This document shows, piece by piece, positions 44,918 to 48,068 of a stretch of DNA of 64,000 nt (position 1 is the stretch's first letter; every line of letters starts with the position of its first letter). Source of the stretch: Bacteriovoracaceae bacterium. Its GTDB lineage: Bacteria; Bdellovibrionota; Bacteriovoracia; Bacteriovoracales; Bacteriovoracaceae. Both the position numbers and the translations under genes were made by a program. The notes beneath the pieces are model-generated. The model did not search any database and had not been told where the DNA came from. It saw only the letters and a program-made list of their open reading frames with translations. The stretch covers positions 1 to 64,000 of the forward strand of contig JAMPXB010000012.1 in the NCBI GenBank assembly GCA_023701435.1, in the 5' to 3' direction.

Positions 44918-45540
44918 AGGATCTGACGCAACTCTTCAACACTATTGAAAATATATGTTGGAGATTCAGCTTCCAGGGCCTTCACGGTGGCATATCCCCA
45001 AGCAACTGCTCCAGAATGAATTCCAAGGACCCGTGCTGCTTCAATGTCACGGGTCTCATCACCTATCGAAATCACCTGTTCTGGTGATTTCCTATATTTC
45101 CTGATAACTTTTTTTAACTTGGCCTTTTTACCAAAGATAGAGACACCACACTCAAAGTGATTGATCCATTTAACATTTTCGCCACCTAGAACCCCTGCAA
45201 CATTGTGGTAGGAATTGGAGCTCAGTATGACGATGAGCGCTCCATCATCTGCTAACTTTTTTATTACAGAATCAATACCGCTAAATAAAGTGATGGACGC
45301 AAGATCTTCTGTCATAAGTCCACGCATATATTTAGCGATAAATGGCACTTTCCACCACGCCACCCCAAGATATTGCATAATCTCTTTGGTCTTTTGGCCC
45401 CTTAATGCTTCCATTTCTACCGCATCTATTTCCCGGAAATGATATTTCCTAGCGGCCTTATTGATTGATTCTCTGAACCAGGAGTATGAATCTGCCAGGG
45501 TACCATCGAAATCAAAAATAATCAGTTTGTAATTCTTCAT
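44911..45540 (-). CDS. HAD-superfamily phosphatase (phosphoglycolate phosphatase-like)
   Basis: 209 residues. Motif I IFDFDGTLADS with nucleophile Asp and acid/base Asp, motif II VILSSNS, and motif IV VISIGDETRDIEAARVLGI. The cap domain is alpha-helical. Like Gph and related phosphatases; the real substrate is unknown. Its 5' end overlaps the esterase gene by 29 bases, so it is the second gene of a two-gene operon. Confidence 0.88.
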   Translation of the reverse strand: MKNYKLIIFDFDGTLADSYSWFRESINKAARKYHFREIDAVEMEALRGQKTKEIMQYLGVAWWKVPFIAKYMRGLMTEDLASITLFSGIDSVIKKLADDGALIVILSSNSYHNVAGVLGGENVKWINHFECGVSIFGKKAKLKKVIRKYRKSPEQVISIGDETRDIEAARVLGIHSGAVAWGYATVKALEAESPTYIFNSVEELRQILQ

Positions 45541-46210
45541 TTAAAAAAGACATCCATGTTCTGGCCGCTTTAAGCACATTTTCCTGAATTCCATGACCAC
45601 CTTGAAATTCAAGATAGTGATAATTAACCTTTAACTCTTCTAAAAGCTCACGACTTTTATGGGCCATTCCTACAGGAAGCTTATCATCCAAACTACCATG
45701 AGTGAGAAAAATTCTTCTGCCTTTTACAGTTTCAGGATGTTTTCTGGCATGGTCCGAAAATTCAGGCAAAGTCCTGCCGGAAAAACAAAGATAATGTCCA
45801 ACAGTAAGAGAACTTTTAAGAGCAAGCCCCATGGTCATAATTGAGCCCTGGCTAAAGCCCATAATAGCAATTCGTTTCAAAGGAGCATTATAGGTTTGAG
45901 AAAGTTTTTTAATTTCTTGCTCCAGGATCTTAAAGCTCGCCTCCGCTTCGGCCCAATTATGGCGTGGTCCCTCAGGAGTAAATTGAACATGAAACCAACC
46001 AAAAGAAGATTCTCCTAAAATCAGCGGCGCGCGCAGGCTTACAATGATTTCATCAGGAGCTAATTGCTCTCCGACAGTGCAAAGACTTTTTTCATTGGCA
46101 CCGACCCCATGAAGAAGAATCAGCAAGGATTGTTCACCCTCCAGTTTTTTTGAAGGATGAGAAATCAAACCTGTTAGGTTTTCAGAAGAATAAGTGGTCC
46201 ATGATCGCAT
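45512..46210 (-). CDS. Phospholipase/carboxylesterase (alpha/beta hydrolase, YpfH-like)
   Basis: 232 residues. Oxyanion-hole LLILLHGVGANE, nucleophile GFSQGS (Ser near 119), Asp in FLTHGSLDDKLPV, and His in FQGGHGIQE complete the catalytic triad of the phospholipase/carboxylesterase family. Cytoplasmic. AAAGGA before the ATG. Upstream partner of the HAD phosphatase. Confidence 0.88.
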   Translation of the reverse strand: MRSWTTYSSENLTGLISHPSKKLEGEQSLLILLHGVGANEKSLCTVGEQLAPDEIIVSLRAPLILGESSFGWFHVQFTPEGPRHNWAEAEASFKILEQEIKKLSQTYNAPLKRIAIMGFSQGSIMTMGLALKSSLTVGHYLCFSGRTLPEFSDHARKHPETVKGRRIFLTHGSLDDKLPVGMAHKSRELLEELKVNYHYLEFQGGHGIQENVLKAARTWMSFLNEELQTDYF

Positions 46211-46306
46211 AGTAGTCCTTTCTTGTTTCTCCTGATTTTAGCCCAAAATCGAACAAGAGGATTACCACTAAAATCAGAACTGACTTTTCTAAAATCGTGA
46301 ACAATC

Positions 46307-46700
46307 TCAAGTTCCAATATTTCCCAACTCATAAGCTTTTTTTAAATTCCCCTCAATGCCATCCCTGCTTTTGTTCTTAATTTCATCTAATTGAGTAACC
46401 TTAACCGAAGTCACGCCAGAAAACTCCAGAACAGCTTTTTTCATCATTCTTACAGCAGGGTCGCCATAGGCAAATTTATTCCACCACCATGGGGCATCTG
46501 TTGTGATTATTAAGCGACCTGTGCGCCCTTTGAGTAGACGATCCCACCAAGTGCTCCGCCCAAAGGATGTCGTTTGGGGCCTGTCGTAGATCTTCTTCAA
46601 GCTCCTGAATTTCTAAATAAACCTTGTGAAGGATAGGATCAAAGTCCAGTTGAGACAGATGAATGAGTTTGGCCTCATGATTGCCAGCCAAAGCAAATCG
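46307..46700 (-). pseudogene. Flavodoxin-fold NAD(P)H oxidoreductase (KefF/MdaB family), broken
   Basis: Two reading frames must be joined to recover the family. One frame gives AGNHEAKLIHLSQLDFDP, ELEEDLRQAPNDILWAEHLV; the other gives WWDRLLKGRTGRLII, then TTDAPWWWNKFAYGDPA, AVRMMKKAVLEFSGV and KKAYELGNIG. Both fit KefF/MdaB-type reductases. The roughly 40-residue middle part that normally carries the FMN-loop (PTWW...) and 'KGFIDRV' is missing, with a frame change at about 46547. About 28 N-terminal residues are also missing: a TAA lies directly upstream at 46704-46706. Cannot give a functional enzyme. Confidence 0.85.
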
Positions 46701-46744
46701 CAGTTATTCAAAAGACAGTTGAATTCATTAAAAATAAAGGTGAA

Positions 46745-47236
46745 GTGGATTTTACCCTTCGTGAAATTGCGACTGCACTTAAAGTGAGTCACACTGCCAT
46801 CTATCGCCATTTTAAATCAAAGCAAGACCTTCTTTCTTATATTGCCGAGGAAGGATTTCATAATCTGTGCCATCAATTTGAATTTGAACTTGAAAAAGTT
46901 CGTTCTTCTCGTATGAAGTTTAAATCACTTATCAGAACTTACATCCATTTTGCTCTGCTAAATAGTGGTCATTATCGAAGCATGTTCCATCATGAGCTTC
47001 GTTGTGAGAACTCACTACGGCCCGAGCTTGAGATTGCCGGAATGAATGCCTTTAATCATTTAATGGAGATCTATCAGTCGGGAGTAAAGGAGCCAGTATT
47101 CAGAAAAGATAAACCTGAGATTATGGCCAGATCAATTTGGTCATCAATTCATGGCTTTCAAATTACATCTCAGCTTTATAGAAAGAACTCTTTAAAAATA
47201 GCGCACTCTCCTGATATCAACTATTTAGCGATTTGA
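46745..47236 (+). CDS. TetR-family regulator, N-terminally truncated
   Basis: 163 residues from GTG 46745. HTH core FTLREIATALKVSHTAIYRHFKSKQ is intact for helices 2 and 3, and the C-terminal ligand domain (TetR_C-like, about 45-160) is complete. Helix 1 (IQKTVEFIKNKGEV) is encoded just upstream in the same frame, which is open back to about 46667 but has no ATG, GTG or TTG there. The usual start and promoter are therefore missing. It stands divergent to a broken oxidoreductase gene, its likely former target. Confidence 0.72.
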   Translation: MDFTLREIATALKVSHTAIYRHFKSKQDLLSYIAEEGFHNLCHQFEFELEKVRSSRMKFKSLIRTYIHFALLNSGHYRSMFHHELRCENSLRPELEIAGMNAFNHLMEIYQSGVKEPVFRKDKPEIMARSIWSSIHGFQITSQLYRKNSLKIAHSPDINYLAI

Positions 47237-47267
47237 TTTTTCTGACCATTTACCGATGAGAATATTG

Positions 47268-48068
47268 ATGAAAAATGTTTATCTGCTTCTCCTTATTCTG
47301 CTCCTCTCCCCTATGAAGTCATGGTCATTGACGGTGGCCGAGAGTGAAATAAGCACTTGGGAAAGTAAGGCGTTAGAAGAACTTAAAAAACATAAAGACA
47401 AAGATCCTGAAAAAGAATTTCTGCTGTATATGATCGCAGGCCGTGAGCTTTCCGCCTATGGTCAGGAAGAGAGGGCCCGCCGTTATTATCTCATGGCCTA
47501 TGATCATCCAAGTAAAAGCGATAAAACAGAGGCCGTCATACAGCTAGTCGCCCTCAACAGAGAAAACAAGAAAGAATTGAACAAGGCCATAGAGCGTGCC
47601 CATAAGTGGTTTACGAAGAATCCAGAACAAAACCGGCCAGAGCTAAGGCGTTGGCTTGAGATGATGGAAGGCTATGCTCAAGGTAAGACACCTTATCTTG
47701 AACAAGGGTATTACACTTTCTGGGCAGTTGATACCAGAATCGATGAATTAATGAAGGAAGGAAAAGCTGATGAGGCTTACCAAATATTAGGACCGGTTGA
47801 TTTAAACAGTGCTGACATTAACCAGCGAGTTCGTCAGGACCTTCTGGCCGCAGTAGCCTTAGGAAAGAAAATTTCTCCACCATTATCATGTCTTCCCACT
47901 CTGGAAAAGTATCCTACATCTACTACCTGGAGTATGAGAGTTTGCCGTTTTTTAGATGACTGGAAAAATGAGAAAAAGCCCAGAGAAACAATTCAAAGTA
48001 TAAAAGAGCAGTTAACAAGAGAAAACCCAGAACGTCTTCATTGGATAAGACTCCTGGAACGTTTATGA
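47268..48068 (+). CDS. Secreted TPR-like protein
   Basis: 266 residues from ATG 47268 (ATG 47256 would add four). Signal peptide MKNVYLLLLILLLSPMKSWS. Helical repeats with TPR-like spacing (LLYMIAGRELSAYGQEERARRYY; WFTKNPEQNRPELRRWLEMM). Probably periplasmic. ATGA overlap with the downstream lipoprotein gene, suggesting the two act together. Confidence 0.68.
   Translation: MKNVYLLLLILLLSPMKSWSLTVAESEISTWESKALEELKKHKDKDPEKEFLLYMIAGRELSAYGQEERARRYYLMAYDHPSKSDKTEAVIQLVALNRENKKELNKAIERAHKWFTKNPEQNRPELRRWLEMMEGYAQGKTPYLEQGYYTFWAVDTRIDELMKEGKADEAYQILGPVDLNSADINQRVRQDLLAAVALGKKISPPLSCLPTLEKYPTSTTWSMRVCRFLDDWKNEKKPRETIQSIKEQLTRENPERLHWIRLLERL

Follow-up and report, generated by a model that had tools for sequence, protein, structure and literature searches.

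What becomes of a divergent gene pair when both of its start codons are missing at one and the same junction is the question raised by positions 46307 to 47236 of the window, by which we mean the whole 64,000-nucleotide stretch analyzed here (contig JAMPXB010000012.1 of a Bacteriovoracaceae bacterium, assembly GCA_023701435.1). The locus carries a reductase on the minus strand and a TetR-family regulator on the plus strand, and we consider it highly probable that both are pseudogenes made by two deletions, one of at least 168 bp in the start region and another of 110 bp within the reductase. The locus is an ordinary, rather clear instance of gene decay. We found no literature on it among the matches listed.

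The reductase gene, of the Flavodoxin_2/NADPH-quinone-reductase type, is present as two minus-strand pieces in different frames, both clearly homologous to intact relatives in sequence comparisons. The N-proximal remnant, piece A (46545–46703), has its better-supported homology at 46545–46682 and perhaps as far as 46694. Its frame is open from 46703 down to 46476 and starts LRFALAGNHEAKL..., directly below the TAA at 46706–46704 to which the initial annotation had pointed, and holds no start codon within the homologous context. The C-terminal remnant, piece B (46307–46555), sits in a frame open from 46612 to the stop at 46309–46307, with homology beginning at the Ser codon at 46555. No Pfam family matched piece A; PF02525 (Flavodoxin_2) matched piece B at 17.9 bits (E = 0.0026), below its cut-off of 27, and piece B is 51% identical to the reductase of a genome of the same genus, G015, over query residues 20 to 100. 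Compared with the intact G015 protein, 27 to 31 N-terminal residues are missing by alignment and profile, so that the earlier figure of about 28 stands. The window's reductase lacks both the N-terminal loop (GHPxxxSF) and a central WW..PA..KGF.DR...GFAF block, which are found, with substitutions in places, in 11 of 11 aligned relatives. The same is seen against the best solved match of the G015 reductase, the NADPH quinone oxidoreductase PDB 3lcm (a putative oxidoreductase; E = 3.5e-20, residues 3 to 186), relative to which the window copy has neither the N-terminal loop nor the central WWGSxPALxKGFIDR...GFAF block. Loop and block have a role in cofactor binding. Because the N-terminal cofactor loop and the central active-site block are lost, the reductase should be inactive, and it is very probably dead.

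The regulator remnant on the plus strand (46700–47236) lies in a frame of 189 open codons (46667–47233) closed by a stop at 47234–47236. Within this stop-to-stop frame, the helix-turn-helix (HTH) domain PF00440 (TetR_N; 38.3 bits against a cut-off of 24) and the TetR C-terminal domain PF13305 (TetR_C_33; 34.4 bits against 26.8) both score above cut-off. The nearest intact TetR, that of G015, is 41% identical, and in the alignment family homology extends back only to about 46700, resuming at Ala 46700, the equivalent of Ala 13 in G015. The start codon and an N-terminal arm of about 12 residues (MAKAYHHGDLKE in G015, the YHHGDLKE arm) are lost, and helix 1 is mostly kept from Ala 46700 onward. 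The first ATG, GTG, or TTG left in the frame is the GTG at 46745–46747, opening 163 amino acids without helix 1; none of these codons occurs 5' of it, so none stands ahead of the full HTH domain, and the rare start codons in the frame are ATC 46697, ATT 46706, and ATT 46727. The initial description of a TetR gene with no start for helix 1 was therefore correct about the start, the first one being GTG 46745, but helix 1 itself is mostly retained. Two further ideas about this gene were discarded. A third lesion at the C terminus was considered, and the tail, a few residues shorter than in G015, fits an in-frame difference when the alignment is judged by eye. A lateral, distant origin was considered as well, and the best match among the 58 genomes searched is the same-genus one (41%). 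The genome itself holds no other match to this regulator at an E value of 0.01 or below, and a non-exhaustive scan able to pick up only close relatives gave 38 loci with 26 to 29% identity where the match was long.

Both remnants can be measured against intact counterparts. In the set of 58 genomes searched with the regulator and 58 searched with piece B, the regulator was matched in 6 (E ≤ 1e-8) and piece B in 7 (E ≤ 1e-5), the source genome included in each count. A genus-wide search at an E value of 1e-15 recovered the regulator in 2 of 26 genomes, the source genome and G015. In G015, a reductase of 191 amino acids and a TetR of 187 amino acids diverge from starts 56 bp apart. An intact-reductase search over 129 genomes of the order (E value of 1e-20) found 26 places in 23 genomes, including the remnant described here, and the 25 other places were inspected with 1.5 kb on each side at a TetR threshold of E = 0.01. 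A divergent TetR-like frame adjoins the reductase at seven of them (G015, G059, G101, G027, and second copies in G060, G063, and G069), and no divergent TetR was detectable at that threshold in the remaining 18. In G060, the regulator shows only weak similarity (E = 3e-5). In the three pairs for which both starts were located, these lie 56, 75, and 85 bp apart. The expectation that relatives would carry an intact divergent pair of a reductase of about 200 residues and a TetR of about 190 is thus borne out by G015 and by six further pairs in the order, and all seven pairs contain the stretches missing from the window. Two observations concern the neighborhoods of these genes. The closest counterpart of the G015 reductase (64% identity; L060, in G009) has no detectable TetR neighbor; directly upstream of it, in the same orientation, lies a gene that by eye resembles an RND transporter. 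Beside the intact G015 pair, L002:2163-2774 gives a weak CusF-like match (25.9 bits against a cut-off of 143).

The lengths missing from the window follow from conserved anchors. Between the reductase's LIHL-type anchor and the FTLRE-type anchor in TetR lie 83 bp in the window and 251, 270, 282, 287, 292, 314, and 428 bp in the seven divergent pairs. Provided that the ancestral stretch was at least as long as that of G015, the window lacks at least 168 bp relative to the shortest relative (83 versus 251 bp). Anchor distances, profile, and alignment place this junction at about 46683–46699. Some 28 residues of the reductase and some 12 of TetR were lost together with the spacer, none of which remains between the two genes. 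The reductase-side end of homology is blurred, as the cumulative profile score is 6.06 at an Asn and still 5.58 at an Ala four residues on. Nonsense mutation was rejected as a cause, since the flanking stops fall in the neighboring gene's DNA: the TAA preceding the reductase remnant and the stop that bounds the TetR frame are each the other gene's DNA read antisense and need not be nonsense mutations. The anchor distances in all seven pairs accord with the proposal that a single deletion removed the shared promoter region together with both 5' ends.

The second loss, which the initial annotation had suspected near 46547 as a frame-changing internal deletion, can be placed at 46545–46555 on the minus strand by anchor lengths and profile scores. 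From the HxV to the WD anchor, the distance is 117 bp in all seven divergent pairs but 7 bp in the window, a frameshifting loss of 110 bp. Against a profile built from 25 reductase sequences (including G015, which was also used a second time as the reference), homology of piece A stops at the Val codon 46547–46545 and that of piece B starts at the Ser codon 46555–46553, with the score for piece B dropping just upstream of Ser 46555. The 11 bases 46545–46555 thus give homologous residues in either of the two frames, the pattern expected of a deletion between short direct repeats, and the 110 bp were probably lost by slippage between direct repeats of about 8 to 11 bp.

Could the two stretches have been dropped by the assembler, leaving an intact pair in the living genome? 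The assembly (3.63 Mb) is in 53 contigs, which leaves some room for such an error. However, the two losses (110 bp and at least 168 bp) lie some 140 bases apart and do not resemble the usual single-base errors, the remnants show no stop or shift elsewhere, both neighboring genes are open, and, on the present evidence, the internal join involves a repeat of no more than 11 bases. The words used in assembly are usually longer than 11 bases. We therefore regard an assembly error as unlikely and give it only a slim chance.

It is similarly improbable that the regulator is still made as a 163-amino-acid protein from GTG 46745, with its function kept or changed, for example to ligand binding or dimer formation without full DNA binding. 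The stretch 46745–47236 forms an open frame, the stop-to-stop frame around it matches PF13305 above cut-off, and AAGG stands just 5' of the GTG; the long open TetR frame fits residual use and to that extent speaks against the pseudogene reading. The ribosome-site match amounts to four bases, however, and matches of at least four bases occur at 1,022 of 5,000 random positions and likewise precede 23 of 43 starts of long ORFs; since random positions and real starts both often reach four, the match neither supports nor excludes translation. The product would be without helix 1, neither the start region nor the partner gene remains, and the codon aligned to GTG 46745 is not ATG, GTG, or TTG in any of the seven relatives. 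The openness of the frame is explained by the youth of the decay alone. The suggestion that the regulator might be partly used from this GTG accordingly finds no support, and slimmer still is the prospect that the shortened TetR persists specifically as a ligand-binding or dimer-poisoning protein. If it did, the regulator would have outlived its partner gene, and the deletion would have changed rather than ended its function. Lacking a start in homologous context, the N-terminal arm, its own start region, and the partner gene, the regulator is very probably dead too. Finally, there is next to no chance that the two reductase frames, though both open, belong to one gene with a programmed frameshift or encode two short functional proteins, since a frameshift cannot supply the absent block of 36 to 37 residues present in 11 aligned relatives, which rules that version out, and the TTG-started ORFs of 71 and 97 amino acids have ribosome-site matches of two and three bases, like random positions.

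The history that we favor, a pseudogene pair made by two deletions, would then run as follows. In the ancestor, a TetR gene on the plus strand and a minus-strand NAD(P)H quinone-reductase-type gene with the flavodoxin fold would have pointed away from each other, with a short control region in common between them. A deletion of at least 168 bp would have carried off this region along with the start codon and 5' coding end of each gene, and the other, of 110 bp, would have taken the central block of the reductase and shifted its frame. The reductase would thereby have been inactivated and the regulator left with no start, arm, start region, or partner gene to control. The remnants, the intact pairs of the relatives, and the missing lengths are direct observations; from them we infer the slippage, the order of the events, and the loss of expression.

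None of the three open remnants contains a nonsense codon. When random substitutions were simulated on them (1,000 runs for each value), the remnants stayed free of stops with a probability of 0.43 at 0.02, 0.13 at 0.05, and 0.05 at 0.08 substitutions per site. The absence of stops means either that neutral decay has lasted only a short time or that the regulator has been maintained. The simulation suggests a recent decay and is compatible with a neutral divergence below about 0.08 substitutions per site since its onset, a bound that leans on all three remnants being dead because TetR alone still has a 0.18 chance of no stop at 0.08 substitutions per site. The codon index is 0.784 for TetR and 0.721 and 0.725 for the reductase pieces, compared with 0.750 (standard deviation, 0.023) for 44 ORFs; two of five wrong frames score above the right one for piece A and one of five for piece B. 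Base composition is unremarkable (0.399 for the block and 0.418 for the window).

The broken pair is flanked by an open Abhydrolase_2 esterase gene (45512–46210, minus strand; PF02230, 77 bits), which is absent from the corresponding site in G018. There, a HAD-hydrolase gene and a gene like that at 47256–48068 face apart with 57 bp between them, whereas in the window the HAD gene and the 47256 gene are 1,715 bp apart (45541–47255), with the esterase and the broken pair lying between them. G003 has a sensor-kinase-like and a KaiC-type-ATPase-like gene at this place (both by eye). Judging from the loci compared (window 45541–47255, L056, L055, and L086), this is a variable site, for which insertion here or loss in G018 would both be possible. 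A paralogue of the esterase elsewhere in the genome (L053:1429-2160, 59% identity) adjoins a 4,5-DOPA-extradiol-dioxygenase gene (340 bits against a cut-off of 233), and both esterases weakly match the quinone-stress esterase model MhqD (41 and 48 bits against a cut-off of 325). These matches hint at quinone or catechol chemistry near the esterases.

The start regions of the intact pairs, scanned from the reductase start to the FxLRE codon of TetR, offer a view of what the window may have lost. Two copies of ATGTT-N9-AACAT, 21 to 23 bp apart and with zero to two mismatches, occur in four of the seven, namely, G015 (the L059 spacer), G059, and the second copies of G063 and G069, with L075, L083, and L084 as the matching regions. 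The observed motif count was reached by 1, 0, 36, and 7 of 500 mononucleotide shuffles (G015, G059, G063, and G069, respectively), so that the case for a tandem motif appears strong in G015 and G059, fair in G069, and, on this count, weak in G063; these counts are not independent tests, as the motif was picked after viewing the same spacers. At up to two mismatches, the motif is absent from G101, G027, and G060 and from 45500–47300 of the window. Free palindromes in G063 (19 pairs) and G069 (score 11) were matched by 0 of 200 shuffles, and the best palindromes of G015, G059, G101, and G027 were matched by 61, 22, 84, and 51 of 200 and therefore carry no weight alone; the G060 start region has no palindrome. 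A single ATGTT-N9-AACAT site is not specific, because exact counts in eight genomes run from 2 to 11, compared with 1 to 16 for a reversed control. A surviving regulon marked by the motif was likewise rejected, the source genome having four exact places against three for the reversed control, which is chance level. The whole window has no exact site and four one-mismatch sites, also at chance level (3 to 7 in five shuffles), and a promoter scan of 45400–47400 found one site against 4.3 expected in shuffles.

G015 and G059 combine both starts, a short spacer, and the putative operator motif. In PMC3511530, TetR-family genes less than 200 bp from a divergent neighbor are described as most likely to regulate that neighbor, and the intact pair may stand in such a repressor/operator relation. 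The intact relatives have the divergent layout of the TetR/tetA paradigm; the window, by comparison, has neither the control region nor either start.

Bacterial pseudogenes are the subject of The Extinction Dynamics of Bacterial Pseudogenes (PMC2916853). A young pseudogene is expected to be disrupted yet to keep open what is left of its frames, and in this respect the remnants are like other bacterial pseudogenes arising from small deletions. The locus differs from these in that one event beheaded two divergent genes together, because their start region was shared. One small deletion can thus silence two divergent genes at once through a shared start region, and an internal join may still display its direct repeat in two reading frames. 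Perhaps worth more than the broken pair itself are the intact TetR/quinone-reductase pairs with the tandem motif, which provide a directly testable candidate operator.
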